A DNA stretch of 38,323 nucleotides. Source: Anaerolineales bacterium. Its GTDB lineage: Bacteria; Chloroflexota; Anaerolineae; Anaerolineales; Villigracilaceae. The stretch spans positions 1-38,323 of the forward strand of contig JABWAU010000024.1 of NCBI GenBank assembly GCA_013360875.1, given 5' to 3'. Of the stretch, positions 25,068 through 33,288 are shown one piece after another (position 1 is the first letter of the stretch; each line of letters opens with the position of its first letter). A program made the position numbers and the translations under genes. The notes beneath the pieces were generated by a model, which had not been told where the DNA came from, made no database searches, and worked only from the letters and a program-made list of their open reading frames with translations.

Positions 25068-26216
25068 ATGACGAATACCATCGAGCGCATCATCGAGCTT
25101 GCGATTCAGATCCAGCAGATCGCCGCGCCGACGTTCCACGAGCGGAAGCGGGCGGAGTTTGTGAGAGGGTTGTTCGAGAAGGAAGGTTTGAAGGATGTGA
25201 GGATGGATGAGGTGGGGAATGTGTATGGATTGTGGTCGCAGGTTGAAGGTCGAAGGTCACAGGTCAAGCCGCTGGTGATTTCGGCTCATTTGGATACGGT
25301 GTTTCCGTTCGAGATGGATTTGTCCGTGAGGCGGGAGGGGGAGAGGGTGTATGGCATCGGGATCGGGGATAACTCGCTGGGGGTGGCGGCGTTGTTGGGG
25401 TTGATGTGGATGTTAACCTCACCGCTTCGACAGGCTCAGCGCGACGCCCAACCCTCTCCTGAAAGGAGAGGGGGAAGAGATGTTTGGTTCGTGGCGAATG
25501 TGGGCGAGGAGGGATTGGGCGACCTGCACGGGATGAAGGCGGTGGTGGATCGGTTTGGTTCGGACGTTCTCGCCTATCTCGTCCTCGAAGGGATGGCGCT
25601 GGGTCACGTGTATCACAAGGCGGTGGGGGTGAAGCGGTATCGCATCACGGCGAAGACCCAGGGCGGACATTCGTGGTCGGATTACGGTCAGCCCTCGGCG
25701 GTGCTGGAGTTATCGAAACTGGTCGTGCAGTTGTCTTCGTTGATACTGCCCTCGAAACCGCGCACGACGATGAACGTGGGCAGGATCAACGGCGGCACTT
25801 CGATCAACGCCATCCCTGCGGAGGCGTGGCTGGAGTTGGACCTGCGCTCGGAAGGGGGGCACGAACTGGCGGAACTGGTCGCCGGGGTGGAGAGGTTGAT
25901 CGAAGCCGCGAACAAGCCCGGGGTAATCGTCGAGGCGGAGGCGATCGGGTCGCGTCCCGCGGGGGAGATGCCCGCGGATCATCCGCTTGTGAAACTCGCG
26001 CAGAGATGTCTCATCGAGCAGGGATTGGAGGCGACGCTGACTTCCGGTTCGACGGATGCGAATATCCCGCTGAGCAAGGGCTATCCCGCCATTGTGCTGG
26101 GCGTGACGAAGGGCGGCGGCGCGCACACGAGGAATGAATTCATCGAGACCGCGTTCGTGGAGAAGGGGATGGGGCAGTTGGTGAGGTTTGTGGAATCAGT
26201 GAGCAGTGACCAGTGA
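25068..26216 (+). CDS. M20-family metallopeptidase/deacylase
   Basis: A 382-aa di-zinc hydrolase of the M20 (ArgE/DapE/PepT) family. Metal-site residues are H74 and D76 in '[10 protein letters not shown]', D101 in '[13 protein letters not shown]', and the E147/E148 pair in '[12 protein letters not shown]'. A dimerisation domain follows ('[13 protein letters not shown]'), then the last metal site near the C-terminus ('[12 protein letters not shown]'). It probably cleaves a peptide or N-acyl amino acid; the substrate is unknown. Three foreign-looking stretches lie in frame: a heptamer run at residues 56-68, a palindrome at about 117-136, and a C-terminal tail from a CAGTGAG array that also reaches the end of the convergent reverse transcriptase gene. 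Confidence 0.9.
25235..25269 (+). repeat. In-frame heptamer repeat in the M20 peptidase gene
   Basis: Five 7-nt units (GTCGCAG, GTTGAAG, GTCGAAG, GTCACAG, GTCAAGC) encode '[12 protein letters not shown]' in the loop before the first metal ligands. Confidence 0.8.
25422..25473. repeat. In-frame palindromic insertion in the M20 peptidase gene
   Basis: It contains the perfect palindrome CCCTCTCCT-gaa-AGGAGAGGG (25452-25472), preceded by CGCTTCGACAGGCTCAGCG-type sequence. It encodes '[20 protein letters not shown]', where family members have a short linker between a helix and the '[12 protein letters not shown]' strand. Confidence 0.75.
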
Positions 26217-27312
26217 GCAGTGACCAGTGGGAAATGGAAAGTATGGTTCGGCGCAAGCCCCAGGTATCCGCATAACGGACGTGGTTGACCCAGCCCTGCA
26301 CGGAGGCGGTAATTTTTGCGCGTGAAACTTTCCCGTTTGCACATTCAAACAGTAGTTGTTTGTATTTTCGTTGAAATGCGATGCCCCTGCGTCTTTTCAA
26401 TTTTCGGTGACCGGGAAAAATCTGAAACCCGAGAAAGGGAATTCCTTCCGAAGCGGGGCGCGGCTGCGTTTTTTGTTCGTGAAGCGTGAGGCGGAAATCC
26501 GTCAATCTTTCGATGATCAAGGCTCTCCAATCACGCAGTTCCTGCTTGTCGTTCGAGAACAGCAGGAAATCATCCACGTAGCGGAGATAGCCTTTGCATC
26601 GTAATTCCCTTTTTACGAAATGGTCGAACGGATTGAGATAACAGTTCGCCCAGAACTGGCTGGTGAGGTTGCCGATGGGCAATCCGCGCGGACGGTGGAG
26701 TGTGAACAGGTCGTCGCCGGGGAAATACACCATCTGATATTCCTCGGACAGGACCCCGACCCCGCTTTGCAGGATCTTGTCTATCAACCACATTACATCC
26801 CCGTCATTGCGAGACCGAAGGTCGAAGCAATCTCCCTTGTGGTTGTTGGGGATTGCTTCGCATAGAACGCTCGCAATGACATTTCGCAAAATTTCATGGT
26901 CGATGCTTGGAAAAAATTGACGGATGTCGCAAGCCAACACATACTTGAAGCGCCGGGCATATTGTGTGGCGCGGTCGAGGGCTTTGTGCGTGCCTTTGCC
27001 GATCCTGTTTGCATAGGAATCGAAGATGAAAGACTTTTCAAAGATCGGTTCGATCAAATTACACAAGGCGTGATGCACCACGCGGTCGCGGAAAGGCGCG
27101 GCGGAGATCAGGCGTTTCTTGGGGTCGTGGATGTAGAAACTGCGGTATTCCCCCGGTTCGTAGGTTTTTGTTTCGAGTTCGTGTTGGAGTTGGAGAAGGT
27201 TATCCTCCAGTCTGTATTCGAAGGCGGCGACGTTGGGATGCCCGCGCTTGCCTTGGCCGGCTTTGCGGTAGGCGAGCAGGAGGTTTTCGAAGGAGTGGAG
27301 TTGTTGATACAT
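26140..27312 (-). CDS. Diversity-generating retroelement reverse transcriptase
   Basis: A 390-aa RT of the DGR clade. The catalytic Asp residues are D129 ('[14 protein letters not shown]') and Y245-V-D-D248 ('[10 protein letters not shown]'). '[19 protein letters not shown]' (about 209-227) carries the I/LGxxxSQ motif that separates DGR RTs from group II intron and retron RTs, which have QGxxxSP. '[20 protein letters not shown]' and '[11 protein letters not shown]' are further family blocks. With the Avd protein it copies the template RNA with adenine errors. A 26-aa stretch (145-170) is encoded by a palindromic repeat inserted in frame. The C-terminal tail after 'WGLRRTIL' comes from a heptamer array. 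The gene is convergent with and overlaps the M20 peptidase by 77 nt. Confidence 0.95.
26197..26231. repeat. CAGTGAG/CAGTGAC heptamer array at converging gene ends
   Basis: Five 7-nt units (CAGTGAG, CAGTGAC, CAGTGAG, CAGTGAC, CAGTGGG). On the plus strand it encodes the M20 tail 'SVSSDQ' and its stop. On the minus strand it encodes '[11 protein letters not shown]' in the RT tail. Confidence 0.9.
26803..26880. repeat. 78-bp palindromic element inserted in frame in the RT gene
   Basis: The outer arms GTCATTGCGAG (26803-26813) and complement (26870-26880) are perfect. The inner arms CGAAGCAATC (26823-26832) and complement (26851-26860) are also perfect. The length is 26 codons, and the RT frame stays open through it. 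Arms of this kind recur in the intergenic DNA of many bacteria. Confidence 0.88.
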
Positions 27313-27477
27313 GATGAGGCGTTCCCGTCCACGAATGGGACCGCGAATTCACGCATGGGGCGCTGGTCATTCGTTCATTCGTGGAATATTCGTGGATGGT
27401 TTGTGCGGATCAAATCCGTTATATAGTATTACTCCGCGAAAACTATGCCAAACGCGAAGATTTTGCAACGCGATTTC

Positions 27478-27606
27478 ATGCCGCCATTAGGTTGCGGAAT
27501 AAATTCCGCGTTACGTATTTGCCCCGCTTCAAATCGTTACCCGATCAGGAAGCGGGGCTCTTCTATATTTGCCTGACCGCAACATGGAGTCGGACGGCTT
27601 GCCGTC
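27478..27606. repeat. Hairpin-rich spacer between template repeat and RT gene
   Basis: The 424-nt stretch between the RT start and the template repeat has no convincing gene. Perfect hairpins are GCGGAAT-aa-ATTCCGC (27494-27509), GCCCCGCTTC/GAAGCGGGGC (27521-27530 with 27549-27558) and GACGGC-tt-GCCGTC (27593-27606). The first belongs to a unit also present at 10720-10759. Nearer the RT (27313-27400) there are short CGTGGA/ATTCG repeats. In other DGRs the RNA just after the template is needed for priming, so 27600-27736 may be functional RNA. Confidence 0.6.
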
Positions 27607-27736
27607 GCAATCACGGGAGCAACTCCCCGAGTCCATATTTCAGATCAGCCAGGAATATGCCCCGCCATTTTTCTAAGGAGCCTCAACCGCGAACCCCTGA
27701 AAGCGCGCGGACATTTTGGCAATACAAGAAAAGCGT

Positions 27737-27854
27737 GGACACCACCACACGAAACCCCTGATTGTTGTTCCTGTTCTCAGGGTTGTTCCTGTTGCGGACC
27801 GCACAGCGCACGTTCCTCTCATTATTGTTGAACGCGCCGCCGCGCACCACACGG
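27737..27854 (-). other. DGR template repeat (TR)
   Basis: This 118-bp sequence aligns without gaps to the 3' end of the NACHT-FGE gene (28379-28496, offset 642). There are 10 mismatches, at 27769, 27775, 27783, 27787, 27792, 27793, 27813, 27814, 27819 and 27826. All ten are A in the template's coding (minus) strand. The block has 28 such adenines; none of the 90 other positions differs. Read in the target's frame it encodes '[19 protein letters not shown]', rich in AAC/AAT codons as expected of a DGR template. It sits 46 nt after avd. The 24 nt at its 3' end contain one adenine, fitting an IMH-like segment. Confidence 0.96.
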
Positions 27855-27880
27855 TGATGTTCGGGCATATCCCCGCAACA

Positions 27881-27894
27881 GCGGCAGTTGCCGC
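27881..27894. repeat. Short perfect hairpin between avd and template repeat
   Basis: GCGGCA (27881-27886), loop GT, TGCCGC (27889-27894). It is 7 nt from the avd stop and 26 nt from the template repeat, so it would lie in the DGR RNA just 5' of the template. Confidence 0.5.
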
Positions 27895-27900
27895 GAATTG

Positions 27901-28245
27901 CTACTGTGTGACCTTCCTCCAGCCGCCGAGTAGTTTGCCGATCTCGGCGACCATATTCGAAACGTGAAAATATTGTCCCTGAGTTAACCATTCCCATTTT
28001 GCGGCGAGACGCAGATAGGTTCGCACTTTATCGAGCGATTCGTCCGCCGCTTTGAGATACACCAGCCGTTCCTTTCCCATGCGATGATTTGCGGCTTCGA
28101 GTTGTTCCCGAAGATCGAACGCCGCGTCCAGAAGCCTTTTTGTAAATGTATGCCTGTGTGCCGTGGGAAAGTGATTGGTGATCGGCAACAGCCAGGTGAG
28201 AAAATCGAACGTGCGGGTGAAGATGGGCATTTCCTGTCCGCTCAT
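27901..28245 (-). CDS. avd: DGR accessory variability determinant (Avd, four-helix bundle)
   Basis: A 114-aa helical, basic protein of the four-helix-bundle family (related to 23S rRNA intervening-sequence proteins). Avd proteins form a pentameric barrel that binds the DGR RNA and the reverse transcriptase. The sequence shows '[20 protein letters not shown]', '[20 protein letters not shown]' and '[20 protein letters not shown]', matching the helices, and ends 'GKLLGGWRK'. The ATG has GGAGGC 5 nt upstream. It lies between the target gene and the template repeat on the same strand, which is a common DGR order. Confidence 0.92.
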
Positions 28246-28278
28246 GCAGAGCCTCCAAACCGAAAATTTTTAATTCCG

Positions 28279-28300
28279 GTGGGGGGCATTCGCCCCCCAC
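28279..28300. repeat. GC-rich hairpin downstream of the variable repeat
   Basis: GTGGGGGGC (28279-28287), loop ATTC, GCCCCCCAC (28292-28300): a perfect 9-bp stem with a 4-nt loop, 67 nt beyond the target stop. DGR targets in phages carry a similar stem-loop or cruciform after the variable repeat that aids retrohoming. The loop on the coding strand is GAAT, so equivalence is uncertain. The stretch 28321-28366 holds CAGAG-based short repeats. Confidence 0.5.
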
Positions 28301-28366
28301 ACCCCCCAAAGAAAAAAACAAGAGAATCAGAGACCCCAGAGAACCAGAGTCTTCAGAGTACAGAGT

Positions 28367-31300
28367 TTAGAAAAATGGGGACACCACCACACGAAACCCC
28401 TGATTGTTGTACCTGTCCTCAGGGCTGTACCTGAGGCGGACCGCACAGCGCACGAGCCTCACATTATCGTTGAACGCGCCGCCGCGCACCACACGGAGAA
28501 TATTCTTGTTATCTATCTTTTCAAGTTTTGCCTGTGGGTCGAAGGGATATTCCTTGTATTCACTGCGCGTCCATTCCCAAACGTTGCCGCTCATGTCCTG
28601 AATTTCATAAGGGCTTTTGCCCTGCGGGAAACATCCCACCGCGCTGGTCGAGCCGATGATCCTATTGTTGTTGACTTTGTCCTGGTCGAAGTCGTCGCCC
28701 CAGGGGAAAACCCTCGGACCTATCCCCCCGTCCCCCTTCCCTACCAGGGAAGGGGGAGTGAGGGGGTTAGGTGCGCGCGCGGCTTTCTCCCATTCGGCTT
28801 CGCTGGGCAGGGTGACGATGAGATTGCCCGCTTCGATGCCGCTCCAGAATTTTTCCTGCGCTTCATTTTCGGACTTTTGGCTGGGCGCGGCAGATTTGAG
28901 TTTTTCATTCAACCACTTGCAGTATTCGAGAGAGTCGTACCACGTCACATAAACGACGGGATGGTTTGGATGCCCGCGCAGGCTGTTTTCATTGGTCGGT
29001 TTATATCCGCTTTCCTCTACAAAGGCTTTGAACTGCGCCACGGTTACCGGATAACGCGCCATGTAATAATCGGGCAAATGCAATTTGTGTTGAGGCGTTT
29101 CATTCTTATAGTAACCTTCATTGCCGCCGAATTTTTCGATCAAGTCCTGGATGTCGCTTTCCTTTGTGCCCATCAAAAATTCACCGGCGGGGATGTGGAC
29201 GAAACCAAGCAGTGGTTCTTTGGGCAATTGCCAGTTGTTTTCATCGAAGCGCGGGTCGCCGAGGCGGGCGAGGGTGTCGCCGGCAGAGGCACGCAGTTTG
29301 AGGTCGGAAGGCTTTTCATCCTCGATCAGTTTCACCAACCGCTCAGCCAATTGTTCTGCAAGGTCGGGAATGGCTTGCTGGAATTCCAACAGGGCAGAAG
29401 AGGCAAGTTCAGCGGAGGCGATCTGAATATTTTGCGCCATTGAACGATTTCTCTCGTTGGCGTTTTCATCGAGTCCGCCAAGCCTGGATAGGAGTTCTTT
29501 GGCGGGTTTGGGCGCGTTGATGTCCAGATAGCCGCAGAGCAGGAGGATCGGTTCGCGCCACCATGAATCCAAAACCTTGTCATCTTCGATGAATCGGGAA
29601 ATTCCATCTATTTCCCGCATTTGCTCGGCAAGGTAACGTCCCACAAGAAACTCCTGAAACGATAAATGCAGGAAACGAAACGCGCCGCCGCGAAAATCAA
29701 GCACGCCGCCGCGTGCGCGCGCCAGTTTGAGCAGGTCGTCAATGTGGATGGCATAGGCGGGTTCCAATATTTCACGCAGGATTTGTTCGTCCACCTCTTT
29801 GCCCTGTTTTTCGCCGCGTTGGTGCAGATGAAACGCCAGGGTTTGCAGCATCTCGCGGTGAATGGAGACTCCTCCGCCCACGCGCTTGGAAATATCCTCC
29901 GCCACCTTTTCGTCGAGAATATTTTCAGGACGAAGCATTGCGTTTACTGTTTTGTCGTACAGGTCAGCCCTTTGGTTTGGCAGGACGCGGTTGTTGGCGG
30001 CTACCACCAGCATCATCCTCACCATCAACGGACTGTCAACAAGCGGTTCCGCGTTCTCGCCGAGCCTTTTTCGTCTTTCCTGTTCGAGGCGCTGGATGCC
30101 CTCGATCAGGTCGTTTGCGCTCTTTTTGGCGCGGGTGGGCGAATTGACAAAACGATAGTTGTACGCCTTCCGCACCATGGATTCGATCTGTTCCATTTGC
30201 AGAGGCAGAACACGGATGTGTCGAAAGTCGTGTCCCAGCCTGGCAGGTCCGATGTATGCGGCGGTGCGGCTGGTGACAACCATGCGCAGATTGTCTTTTC
30301 CGGAGATCAATTTTTCAATGTCGTTTCTGACTTGAATTCGCTCATCTTCAGTAGGCACTTCGTCCAGCCCATCCAGCAGGAGAAGCACTGAGTCCTTTTC
30401 CTGCAACAGGAAGGCAAAGAAATCCGAACTGATCTCCGGTCCCACCATGTTCAAGACCAGATACTCCGAAATGAAGCCAGCCAATGTCCTTTTCTTTGCA
30501 GGCGCGTTCGCAAAATCGCGTAGATGCCTGGCATATAGATTGAGCGGGACGTAAATGGGCAGGGGATAAGGAGGCTTGATGCCGGTCTTCTTTTCTGCAA
30601 AATTCGAGTTTTCGAGCCAGCCTTGTGCCAGGCTCCATGCGATGTGTTGTAAAACGGTGGTTTTGCCGCACCCGGGTCCGCCGGTAATGATGATCCTGGT
30701 TTTATCGTCAACGAGCAACTCATCCAGTTGAATACGTCGGTTTTCAGCGCGGTCAGTCGGCTTGATACGCGTCCCTTTTTCCTTGATACGGAATTGATCT
30801 TCGATGAACTCTTCCGCCTCGCGCAATGTTTCAGCCTGTAAGGGAATGTACACTTCATCCAGCTTCAAACGAATCACCGGGCTCTCCCCCTGCTCGATGC
30901 CGCGCAATTCGATGTATTCGAAATAATCCTTTACCCATTTCAGATAATTGACAAGTTGATCTTCAAGGATTTTGGGGTCGCTGTTCTTGTCATATTGGGT
31001 GAAGTTGTTGATGGTCTGCTGGATTTGCCCTCCGTGTGTGGCGACCAGATTTTTATCGCCAGTGATGGCGGTCGAGTCTTTCATGTCCCCATCAACAACA
31101 ACGCTTCGATCTCCGGTTTGAACATGGGAAACCTTGATCTCCCCAATCGTGACAGAGACCTCTTCCGCGAACTTCAAATCCTTCGCGAGAATCCTTTTGA
31201 TCTGCTGGCGCAGGGAAGGCAGGGTGTCTTCATCCGAGGGGTCTTTTACGAATTCCTCCACGGCATCCTGCGCGGCGGGCTTGGCTTCCACTTTGGGTTT

Positions 31301-31471
31301 TAACTTTCCCCATAACTTCTCCGCGCCTTCCCAACCCTTCTCCACGAACTTCTCCCCGGCTTTTTCAAAGGCTTTCTTCGCGGCGATCTTTCCGCCTTTC
31401 ACCAAATACGGCAGGTAAGGTGCCAGCAGCGCGGCGGTCTCTGCGGCAAGTTTTGCAATGTCAATTTCCAT
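28367..31471 (-). CDS. DGR target: NACHT-type NTPase with C-terminal variable FGE/C-type lectin domain
   Basis: A 1034-aa protein. The N-terminal 100 residues are helical; residues 105-150 hold short Gly-Asp-rich beta repeats ('GDRSVVVDGDMKDSTAITGD'). The NACHT-type NTPase has Walker A 'GGPGCGKTT' (264-272) and Walker B 'VLLLLDGLDEVP' (362-373). After a helical region, an FGE-sulfatase domain of C-type lectin fold runs from about 755 to the end ('FVHIPAGEFLMGT', 'PVTVAQFKAFVEESGYKPTN', 'LPSEAEWEKAAR', 'DMSGNVWEW'). The last 40 residues are the variable repeat. STAND NTPases like this act as signal-driven switches, so the diversified tip probably senses ligands (inference). A palindromic insert adds about 18 residues at 901-918. 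GGGAGG precedes the ATG at 31471. Confidence 0.94.
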   Translation of the reverse strand: MEIDIAKLAAETAALLAPYLPYLVKGGKIAAKKAFEKAGEKFVEKGWEGAEKLWGKLKPKVEAKPAAQDAVEEFVKDPSDEDTLPSLRQQIKRILAKDLKFAEEVSVTIGEIKVSHVQTGDRSVVVDGDMKDSTAITGDKNLVATHGGQIQQTINNFTQYDKNSDPKILEDQLVNYLKWVKDYFEYIELRGIEQGESPVIRLKLDEVYIPLQAETLREAEEFIEDQFRIKEKGTRIKPTDRAENRRIQLDELLVDDKTRIIITGGPGCGKTTVLQHIAWSLAQGWLENSNFAEKKTGIKPPYPLPIYVPLNLYARHLRDFANAPAKKRTLAGFISEYLVLNMVGPEISSDFFAFLLQEKDSVLLLLDGLDEVPTEDERIQVRNDIEKLISGKDNLRMVVTSRTAAYIGPARLGHDFRHIRVLPLQMEQIESMVRKAYNYRFVNSPTRAKKSANDLIEGIQRLEQERRKRLGENAEPLVDSPLMVRMMLVVAANNRVLPNQRADLYDKTVNAMLRPENILDEKVAEDISKRVGGGVSIHREMLQTLAFHLHQRGEKQGKEVDEQILREILEPAYAIHIDDLLKLARARGGVLDFRGGAFRFLHLSFQEFLVGRYLAEQMREIDGISRFIEDDKVLDSWWREPILLLCGYLDINAPKPAKELLSRLGGLDENANERNRSMAQNIQIASAELASSALLEFQQAIPDLAEQLAERLVKLIEDEKPSDLKLRASAGDTLARLGDPRFDENNWQLPKEPLLGFVHIPAGEFLMGTKESDIQDLIEKFGGNEGYYKNETPQHKLHLPDYYMARYPVTVAQFKAFVEESGYKPTNENSLRGHPNHPVVYVTWYDSLEYCKWLNEKLKSAAPSQKSENEAQEKFWSGIEAGNLIVTLPSEAEWEKAARAPNPLTPPSLVGKGDGGIGPRVFPWGDDFDQDKVNNNRIIGSTSAVGCFPQGKSPYEIQDMSGNVWEWTRSEYKEYPFDPQAKLEKIDNKNILRVVRGGAFNDNVRLVRCAVRLRYSPEDRYNNQGFRVVVSPFF
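28379..28496 (-). other. DGR variable repeat (VR) in the FGE domain
   Basis: This is the 3' end of the target gene, residues about 992-1031 of 1034. Compared with the template, eight codons change: Asn to Asp (twice), Leu (twice), Tyr (twice) and Ser, and Glu to Val. The invariant frame 'VRGGAF', 'VRCAV' and 'NQGFRVVVS' is kept. The changed residues would lie on the ligand-facing surface of the lectin fold, as in other DGR targets. Confidence 0.96.
28719..28771. repeat. In-frame palindromic insertion in the FGE domain
   Basis: The perfect palindrome CCCCCTTCCCT-acc-AGGGAAGGGGG (28732-28756) is flanked by further arms CCTATCCCCC/GGGGGTTAGG (one mismatch). On the minus strand it encodes 'NPLTPPSLVGKGDGGIG' between 'EWEKAAR' and 'RVFPWGDD', which normally are separated by a short loop. 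Confidence 0.85.
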
Positions 31472-31481
31472 GCAAAGCCTC

Positions 31482-31541
31482 CCACTGATCACTGATCACT
31501 GATGACTAACAATCTTATAACGATTTACACTCGACCATCAA
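31482..31541 (-). promoter_or_regulatory. Putative promoter of the DGR operon inside repeats
   Basis: On the minus strand, TTGATG (31536-31541) and TATAAG (31514-31519) are 16 nt apart. The expected start is near 31508, giving a leader of about 37 nt. That leader is largely TGATCAG heptamers (31482-31505), and the -35 box lies in an 8-nt repeat run (ATGGTTCA, ATGGTTTG, ATGGTCGA). The repeats may thus form part of the promoter. Confidence 0.45.
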
Positions 31542-31584: not shown

Positions 31585-33288
31585 TCACTTCAACCCCAGC
31601 ACCTCGAACACTTCCAGCGGCTGGGTCTTGCCTTTCGCAGCGACGGGGGCGATGGGCTTGACCTCCACCTCCTTTTTCACGCGGTCGTACGCCACTTTGC
31701 TGATGATGATCTGGTTCCTGGCGGAATTTTCCTGTAAACGCTTCGCCGTGTTCACGCTGTCGCTGATGGCGGTGTATTCGAGCCTGCGTTCCGTGCCGAT
31801 GAGACCCAGCACCGCGTCGCCGTAATGGATGCCCGCGCCGAAGGCGAGATGCGCCTCCTTGGGCAATTCCTTGTATAGGTTTTCCACCGCCTCGCGGATG
31901 GCAAGCGCGGCTTTGACCGCGCGCAGGGTGTGGTCCGCCTGCGGGATGGGCGCGTTGAACCATGCCATGATCGCGTCGCCCATGAACTTGTCAATGGTGC
32001 CTTCGTGCAAAAGGACCGCCTCCGCCATGGCGGCAAGGTAACGGTTGAGGATCGAAACGAGTTGCTCCGGTTCCTGCGATTCGCTGAACGAGGTGAAACC
32101 GCGCACGTCTGCGAACAGCACGGTGATGTCCGCGCGTTTGCCGCCCAGTTGCAGGCTGTTCGGGTCGAGTTGCTGGATGACGGCCGGCGAGACCATGCGC
32201 TCGAAGAGTTTGCGCTGCGCTTCGAGTTTCTTCTGCTCGGTCAGGTCGTCCAGTACGATGGCGACGCCCTGGGTCTTCTGTCCGGCGTCCTTCAGGGGGG
32301 AGAGATTCAGGCGCCACTCCACGTTGCCGCGTTCGGGCAGTTTGTGGCTGAGTTCGAGTCCCAGGATGGGTTTCTCGCTCTCGCGCACCGAATTCAAATG
32401 CTGTTGAATGTCGTTTGCAAAGGAGGGGACGATCTCATCGAGCTTCCTGCCGACGACTTCCACCGGCGCGCGTCCCAAAATGGACGCGGCGGCTCGATTA
32501 CACAGGGTGATCTGATCCTGCACGTCAGCCGTGATCACCCCCGAGACGATGGAGGCGAACACGTCGTCCATCAGGTTCTTGAGTTCGGTCACTTCCTCGA
32601 GGGTGCGTTTAAGGGAGGAGTACAAGCGCGCGTTTTCGATGGCGACCGCCGCCTGGTTCGCAAAGGCGATCAACAGATCACGGTCCGCTTCGGAAAAGAT
32701 GCCGGTGCGGATGCGGTTATCCGTGTAGATCACGCCGATCAGGTCCGTCTTGACCATCAATGGCACGCATAGGATCGAACGCAGGTTGAAGGCGATGATG
32801 CTTTCCTGCCCGCCGAAGCGCGGGTCTTCGCGCGCGTTGGTGGTCAGAACCGCCTCGCCCCCCTGGATGACGCGTTCGATGATCGTGCGGCTGATGGCGA
32901 ACTCGCTCTTGTTGATGGATTCCTGCTCCCAGTTGCGCGCGAGGCGGGTTTGCATTTCGCCGTGTTCGTCGCGAAGCATGAGGAAGCCGCGTTCGGCGCC
33001 GGTCAGGCGCACGATCGTGTCCATTACGATTTGCAGCACCTCGTCAATTTCGAGCGTCGAATTGACGACCTGCCCGATCCCTGCCAGAGCCTGCAGGTGG
33101 CTGAAACGCTGTTCGAAGGGGATCATTACTTCGCTGATGCGCGAGAGGGAATTTTCGAGTTCCTTGATTCCCTCCACCGCCTCCGGGTGACGGTTTGCGT
33201 CCAGCGAGGCGCGCAGTTTCGCGGCGCGCTGCGTTACGGATACCAGTTGATCGTTGATGGTGACGGATTTCGTTTTTGCTGTAGCCAT
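31585..33288 (-). CDS. GAF-PAS-class III adenylate cyclase
   Basis: A 567-aa cytoplasmic signalling protein. A coiled coil (about 10-60) leads to a GAF domain (about 70-220), a PAS domain (about 235-350) and a class III cyclase domain. Metal-binding Asp residues are D394 ('VLFADVRGFTSFSE') and D438 ('FMGDAIMAW'). K434 and D510 ('AISDSVNTAKRLQ') are the adenine-selecting pair, and N513 and R517 are the transition-state residues, so the product should be cAMP. The window also has CRP-like sites, which makes a cAMP-CRP link possible but unproven. GAAGGATAG precedes the ATG. It ends 114 nt before the DGR target start. Confidence 0.93.
   Translation of the reverse strand: MATAKTKSVTINDQLVSVTQRAAKLRASLDANRHPEAVEGIKELENSLSRISEVMIPFEQRFSHLQALAGIGQVVNSTLEIDEVLQIVMDTIVRLTGAERGFLMLRDEHGEMQTRLARNWEQESINKSEFAISRTIIERVIQGGEAVLTTNAREDPRFGGQESIIAFNLRSILCVPLMVKTDLIGVIYTDNRIRTGIFSEADRDLLIAFANQAAVAIENARLYSSLKRTLEEVTELKNLMDDVFASIVSGVITADVQDQITLCNRAAASILGRAPVEVVGRKLDEIVPSFANDIQQHLNSVRESEKPILGLELSHKLPERGNVEWRLNLSPLKDAGQKTQGVAIVLDDLTEQKKLEAQRKLFERMVSPAVIQQLDPNSLQLGGKRADITVLFADVRGFTSFSESQEPEQLVSILNRYLAAMAEAVLLHEGTIDKFMGDAIMAWFNAPIPQADHTLRAVKAALAIREAVENLYKELPKEAHLAFGAGIHYGDAVLGLIGTERRLEYTAISDSVNTAKRLQENSARNQIIISKVAYDRVKKEVEVKPIAPVAAKGKTQPLEVFEVLGLK

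Follow-up and report, generated by a model that had tools for sequence, protein, structure and literature searches.

The diversity-generating retroelement (DGR) of Bordetella phage BPP-1 (brt, avd, Mtd) has a reverse transcriptase (RT), the accessory protein Avd, a template repeat (TR), a variable repeat (VR) and adenine-directed change, and its target is a phage tail protein. Cellular DGRs that diversify NACHT/STAND proteins with a C-lectin-type (CLec) domain were published in 2024 (PMC10907252), with DGRs 3 and 6 of Thiohalocapsa PB-PSB1 and ‘clade 5D’ as examples; because such systems were described there, the idea of a DGR-rewritten NACHT sensor is not new. Here we analyze a complete DGR on the minus strand (26140–31471, transcribed in the order target, avd, TR, RT) of contig JABWAU010000024.1 from an Anaerolineales bacterium. 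The window, the whole stretch of DNA that was analyzed, is this entire contig (C201; 38,323 bases), which belongs to an assembly of 4.0 Mb in 208 contigs. We think it probable that this is a chromosomal, cellular DGR that rewrites the C-lectin tip of an NLR-like NACHT switch, with a build like that of immune receptors in animals and plants and itself most likely a defence or self/non-self sensor.

The window DGR has all of the components of the BPP-1 system as well as its adenine-directed change, and its RT, 34.5% identical to brt, is predicted to fold like the DGR reverse transcriptase 8ub7; it differs in being chromosomal and in having a NACHT protein as its target. The clade 5 DGRs of PMC10907252 share several features with it: a NACHT or nSTAND1 core is fused to a C-terminal CLec that carries the VR, there are several DGRs per genome, filamentous Chloroflexi are among the hosts, and domain shuffling and repeats resembling miniature inverted-repeat transposable elements (MITEs) are described. 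The link to clade 5D is one of architecture and host type, a STAND NTPase with a single CLec, but clade 5D DGRs commonly have two targets, whereas the window DGR and the second DGR of this genome (contig C30, locus L026) have one each. According to that paper, DGR targets are duplicated, recombine and have their domains shuffled inside a single genome, while the cores compared here differ by replacement between species at an orthologous site; there, MITE-like arrays replace RT genes, and here palindromes lie in frame within an open RT. In the anti-phage STAND/NACHT proteins (Avs, bNACHT) and in animal NLRs the NACHT core is likewise flanked by an N-terminal and a C-terminal module, and NLRC4, NOD2 and NLRP3 are the top PDB folds for the target model (ToxD is at rank 27), but the window protein ends in a C-lectin domain that is rewritten by the DGR, and its N-terminal region is unrecognised. 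The window adds a well-documented Anaerolineales case to the published idea that bacteria have NLR-like sensors whose tips a DGR rewrites; beyond the published account it adds a cross-species test at one site, the in-place exchange of the core and a repeat-prone RT loop.

The original prediction had placed a target gene with a 3′ VR, avd, a TR and a DGR-type RT between 26140 and 31471 on the minus strand, and all four parts were found there. Comparison of the TR (27727–27857) with the VR (28369–28499, an interval that contains the VR first proposed at 28379–28496) gives 14 mismatches over 131 nt, 12 of them on template A, of which the TR has 30 (hypergeometric P = 1.8e-7); the two non-A mismatches are both at the 3′ edge. 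At its 3′ end the target gene is a copy of the TR altered almost exclusively at template adenines. These 30 adenines occupy codon positions 1, 2 and 3 in 15, 15 and 0 cases, respectively, and are present in 19 codons; no substitution at them yields a stop, and ∼10^17 proteins could be reached through changes at template A, a figure for which edge codons may fall outside the copied stretch. The VR encodes residues 991–1034 of the target, at the end of the C-lectin-type domain. When the genome was searched with the TR, the query, its VR and the second DGR’s TR were recovered; beyond these the best match has E = 0.0055 over 26 bases, and the presence of another VR in this genome was rejected.

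To follow the site across the genus, we used the GAF-PAS-cyclase gene that flanks the target (31585–33288, minus strand; Pfam) as an anchor in 18 genomes, and the site could be read in 16 of the 17 congeners (G008 has a cyclase fragment only and its site was excluded); DNA-level matches were made for five congeners. Of the 18 genomes, 4 have a whole or partial DGR there. The DGR is complete in the window and in G012; the G007 target is truncated by a contig end, with residues 1–909 visible, and G006 holds a remnant (L159; G006:C4, 7616–8844). The other flank in the window is an M20 peptidase gene (25068–26216, plus strand; Pfam); the peptidase and cyclase genes adjoin, without a DGR, in 10 of the 18 genomes, and a PfkB sugar kinase gene adjoins the cyclase gene in 3. 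The site is chromosomal, because its empty form lies within a G011 contig of 3.97 Mb. Viewed across 18 genomes of one genus, this site is in effect a natural experiment, with the DGR present, decayed or absent, and with a defined ortholog pair the questions of ligand and output become testable.

The VR comparison is one between species, of the window with its congener G012 at the same chromosomal place. The two VRs differ at 17 of the 30 columns with A in both TRs, but at none of the 94 columns in which the TRs share a non-A base (Fisher P = 3.5e-13), and at 5 of the 7 columns where the TRs themselves differ, each VR equals its own TR. The VRs of the two species thus differ only at template adenines, at columns where the TRs differ and by one inserted base; bar that base, the check set out in the original prediction, whether variation between relatives is confined to template-A positions, was passed. 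By this comparison, TR-to-VR copying continued after the window lineage split from that of G012. The VRs of L169 (G012, with the inserted base) and L178 (G010) seem to carry small length changes relative to their own TRs that shift the frames of the targets; these seem to be by-products of homing or assembly errors.

Outside the VR, the nonsynonymous and synonymous divergences (dN/dS) between the window and G012 are 0.15/1.33 for the RT, 0.07/1.79 for avd and 0.15/2.01 for the CLec domain, ratios that are rough since silent sites are close to saturation, and third positions differ at 45%, 45% and 48%, respectively. By these measures the C-lectin end, avd and the RT have diverged equally at silent sites, whereas the NACHT core differs by replacement. 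The avd products of the two genomes are 92% identical; a recent exchange of avd is disfavoured, as its third-position differences match those of the RT and CLec.

Replacement of the core is suggested by comparison of the three site orthologs (window, G012 and G007), a group that was named by chromosomal site, but after the identities had been seen. Their CLec domains are mutual best matches at 66–72% identity, and a quick CLec tree (52 rows) unites them with a Shimodaira–Hasegawa-like approximate likelihood ratio (SH-aLRT) support of 100. By contrast, the middle of the window target is only 16–30% identical, by segment, to those of G012 and G007, and the nearest relatives of the cores are found elsewhere: L095 for the window (44%), L066 for G012 (67%) and L079 for G007 (50%). 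A quick tree of the cores (37 rows) keeps the three site orthologs apart by starred branches, and a single clade of the three cores was rejected by the approximately unbiased (AU) test (p-AU 5e-7; 33 rows, four long-branch rows having been dropped). The DNA match between the window and G007 ends at residue ∼109 and restarts at ∼732. The N-terminal regions of the window, G007 and the G006 remnant are 81–86% alike, while that of G012 is 42–47% like these and no closer to them than to other loci. Fast divergence in place of a swap is disfavoured both by the AU test and because each core is closer to those of other loci than to those of its site orthologs. At one chromosomal site, then, the lectin ends are orthologous and the NACHT cores come from three different lineages. 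In-place replacement of the core between species was not found in the available part of PMC10907252 or in the literature searched.

The RT gene (26140–27312, 390 aa) is a single open frame. Its product matches RVT_1 (E = 2.5e-20), with YVDD at 26569–26580 and a second, 10-residue motif at 26656–26685, and the DGR reverse transcriptase 8ub7 is both its best PDB sequence match (E = 2.6e-49) and the best fold match of its model (template modelling (TM) score 0.87 by target length). The model has a predicted local distance difference test (pLDDT) score of 82, with a low-confidence tail at residues 361–390 (under 50). The avd gene (27901–28245, 114 aa) is identified by NCBIfam NF033474 (89.3 bits; cut-off 80), by Pfam bAvd (64.4; cut-off 40) and by the PHROG family ‘Avd protein of DGR’. 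The RT frame shares its last stretch, 26140–26216, with the end of the M20 peptidase gene, which runs towards it.

Within the RT gene, a dispersed palindromic repeat of 78 nt lies in frame (26803–26880; found by repeat search), encoding residues 145–170, which lie between the motif A sequence FPSIDH and a further RT motif. In the model these residues (pLDDT 55–66) form a loop joining helices 139–153 and 170–184. The spacing between motifs A and B, counted for the 91 of 102 RT rows that span both, is 66 residues in 72 rows, 67 in 8, 52 in one, 70 in two and 74 in one; it is long (81–129 residues) in seven RTs, those of the window, C30, L059, L061, L063, L069 and L111, all of which fall within one 11-row clade of an 82-row tree. 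The inserts belong to several repeat families. CATTGCGAG..GAAGCAATC is inserted in the RTs of the window, C30 and L061, and its one-arm matches number 38 in this genome and 68 in that of L061 (controls 0; the control in this genome was the reversed pattern). The RTs of L059 and L111 carry GACCCTAAAGGTTTC, which, with one mismatch allowed, occurs 191 times in the L059 genome, 46 times in the L111 genome and 96 times in this one (controls 0–1), and the L063 RT carries AAAAGTCT..AGACTTTT, with 16 strand matches at 8 places (control 0). By eye, the L069 RT has another repeat-rich insert and the L067 RT a short palindromic one. This loop appears to take up unrelated palindromic repeats repeatedly and in frame, with dispersed families that differ between relatives.

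The inserts of the window and C30 RTs are probably separate events or the result of segment conversion between the two genes, because in the RT tree the window RT pairs with the insert-free L058 RT and the C30 RT is placed elsewhere; a single shared insertion is disfavoured, with p-AU 0.002 against the two RTs as one clade (24 rows, insert columns excluded). The palindromic elements of Rickettsia are dispersed repeats that are translated, in frame, as part of proteins. The RT inserts resemble them in both respects, but belong to other repeat families in another phylum, and here several families enter one loop of one gene family. A literature search on palindromic elements found no paper on palindromic inserts in DGR RTs. 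Of 32 other copies of the CATTGCGAG repeat that were fetched, three (L191, L195 and L199) have at least 100 open residues on either side; at L191 and L195 the repeat is in frame inside open frames of this genome that read as helicase-like and aminotransferase-like, and since these look like genes, the RT is not alone in carrying the repeat in frame. A distinct short in-frame insert follows GDD, a second RT position, in the L041 and L069 RTs; it reads PSTGSGQG and presumably resembles a dispersed repeat.

These observations lead us to a tentative model, which we put forward as a possibility, of a receptor chassis that changes in two layers: the DGR would rewrite the tip rapidly, and over species time the NACHT motor would be exchanged in situ, with the N-terminal module on one side of it and the DGR-linked lectin end on the other, and with the RT loop taking up unrelated palindromes, perhaps beyond mere tolerance (as a folded RNA feature or a selected loop). 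If this is true, one locus has been fitted with different signalling cores. Exchange of the core separates the tip from the motor, which suggests that the two might be combined across lineages.

The target gene (28367–31471) encodes 1034 aa from the ATG at 31471 (GTG at 31492 is an alternative start) and matches Pfam NACHT (E = 3.8e-15; 56.6 bits, cut-off 26.7) and the FGE-sulfatase/CLec domain (E = 3e-49). Residues 1–110 are helical and are followed by a linker, the NACHT core, a helical part to about residue 740 and the FGE-type C-lectin domain at 757–1029; Walker A (GGPGCGKT) is at residue 264 and a Walker B-like LLLLDGLDE at residue 363. No convincing PDB sequence match was found to give the N-terminal region a known fold, and as to a partner effector sharing that region, only the two DGR targets match it in this genome at E = 0.01. 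By established DGR biology, the RT, together with Avd, would copy TR RNA into cDNA, making errors at adenines, and this cDNA would then replace the VR. The C-lectin end of an NLR-like switch would bind a ligand, and the NACHT core would oligomerise and activate the N-terminal helical region, in what would most likely be a defence or self/non-self sensor. The diversification mechanism is well supported; the sensor function of the target is what we infer.

A number of results weigh against this reading. The target model has a pLDDT of 67, better in the core and under 50 over residues 979–1023, the VR region, its TM-scores to NLRs are 0.35 or less by query, and searches of Pfam, PADLOC, NCBIfam and PDB sequences recognised no effector domain in the N-terminal region. 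The DGR is dispensable, because 13 of the 18 genomes lack one at the site and G006, the nearest congener (cyclase 98% identical), has only the decayed remnant. The inserted base in the G012 VR shifts its frame, and for 39 of 103 RT loci, several of them cut by contig ends, no qualifying TR/VR pair was obtained. Some of these results would fit a relic whose machinery looks intact but no longer diversifies the VR, which would then be fixed: G006 retains only target residues 1–174 and RT residues 1–74 plus a tail, the G012 VR is frameshifted, and the window RT bears an insert of a kind for which three of seven RTs (L061, L063 and L069, the first two at contig ends) gave no TR/VR pair. We consider this unlikely, as the TR and VR of the window differ at only two non-A positions while the orthologs are almost saturated at silent sites, the VRs follow their own TRs at most of the changed columns, and the insert is predicted to sit in a loop between two helices; moreover, the RTs with inserts at L026, L059 and L111 have A-biased pairs, which with the window makes four of the seven. 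An origin from a prophage or other mobile element, which the target once served, we regard as very improbable. There are 128 phage records that match the RT, plasmid RTs reach 49% identity or more (cyanobacterial plasmids, among the matches listed), and absence of the block from the site in most of the genus implies that it was gained or lost as a unit. However, all 128 phage records are below 60% identity and the closest phage RT is 36.5% identical over 92%, compared with up to 75% for relatives on contigs of metagenome-assembled genomes; none of 50,697 phage records covers 80% of the target, which moreover bears a NACHT domain. A narrow scan of IMG/VR (six peptide patterns from one protein) found no relative; eight non-DGR proteins of the window were scanned against PHROGs, where their matches were limited to families of enzymes, kinases or unknown function, and a Pfam scan of 16 window proteins, including the three of the DGR, showed neither an integrase nor a structural protein. 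The phage, IMG/VR and neighbour scans do not favour a prophage origin and, for the proteins scanned, bear out the earlier claim that no phage genes lie nearby; together with the profiles and the chromosomal site, they support a complete cellular DGR with a NACHT NTPase as target.

What the diversified protein recognises is a separate matter. C-lectin folds bind many ligands, and the NACHT protein might be a receptor that serves cell–cell recognition, adhesion or signalling instead of defence, which we judge somewhat unlikely. In NCBIfam the target shows a weak match, in its ATPase region, to EruA (E = 3.5e-4; 18.8 bits, cut-off 1000). Consistent with such a receptor, its matches in PADLOC are weak and limited to the ATPase region (best 2e-4), and in PMC10907252, 128 of the 156 clade 5 RTs from described species belong to bacteria that are multicellular or form aggregates. 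A role in defence or self/non-self sensing is instead favoured by the NLR-like core, by the link that the same source draws between NACHT-CLec targets and conflict systems, and by the 4 TIR_2, 2 EAD1 and 1 trypsin matches among 41 related open reading frames (ORFs).

The second complete DGR of the genome (C30, 1156–6330) has the order target, avd, TR and RT; between its TR and VR there are 21 mismatches over 142 positions, 20 of them at A (P = 1.4e-15). Its target, also a NACHT-CLec protein, is 31% identical to that of the window; its RT is 70% identical and has the in-frame CATTGCGAG repeat at the same loop, and its avd (109 aa) is named by position and by 48% likeness over 106 residues to the window avd. 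A broken second RT was rejected, because the stops that were counted fall at and past the end of a 366-aa open frame. Of 61 genomes searched across the genus, family and order, 34 have some RT match at E = 0.001, many of them weak and to other RTs, and long RT matches are found elsewhere in the genomes of five congeners (G006, G010, G013, G015 and G017). In the wider RT scan, the best 80 of 92 loci comprise, by record title, 66 from Chloroflexota and 14 others (5 Pseudomonadota-type, 3 KSB1 and one each from Myxococcales, Actinomycetota, Nitrospirales, Desulfobacteraceae, Calditrichaeota and an unnamed source), although bins may be impure. A TR/VR pair passed the A-bias criterion, applied without a shuffled control, at 64 of the 103 RT loci, which include some genomes twice.

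Of the ORFs under a VR, 57 were read, and 40 together with that of the window were scanned (17 duplicates, contig-cut and other ORFs were omitted); these 41 include 38 with FGE, 28 with NACHT and 1 with RVT_1. The three that lack FGE are probably L114 and the two L135 rows. An RT is contained in 3 of the 57 ‘target’ ORFs, which are faulty or shifted frames, and natural target–RT fusions were rejected: L099 and L114 are RT frames, and at L178 the VR reading appears shifted and the frame continues into the RT.

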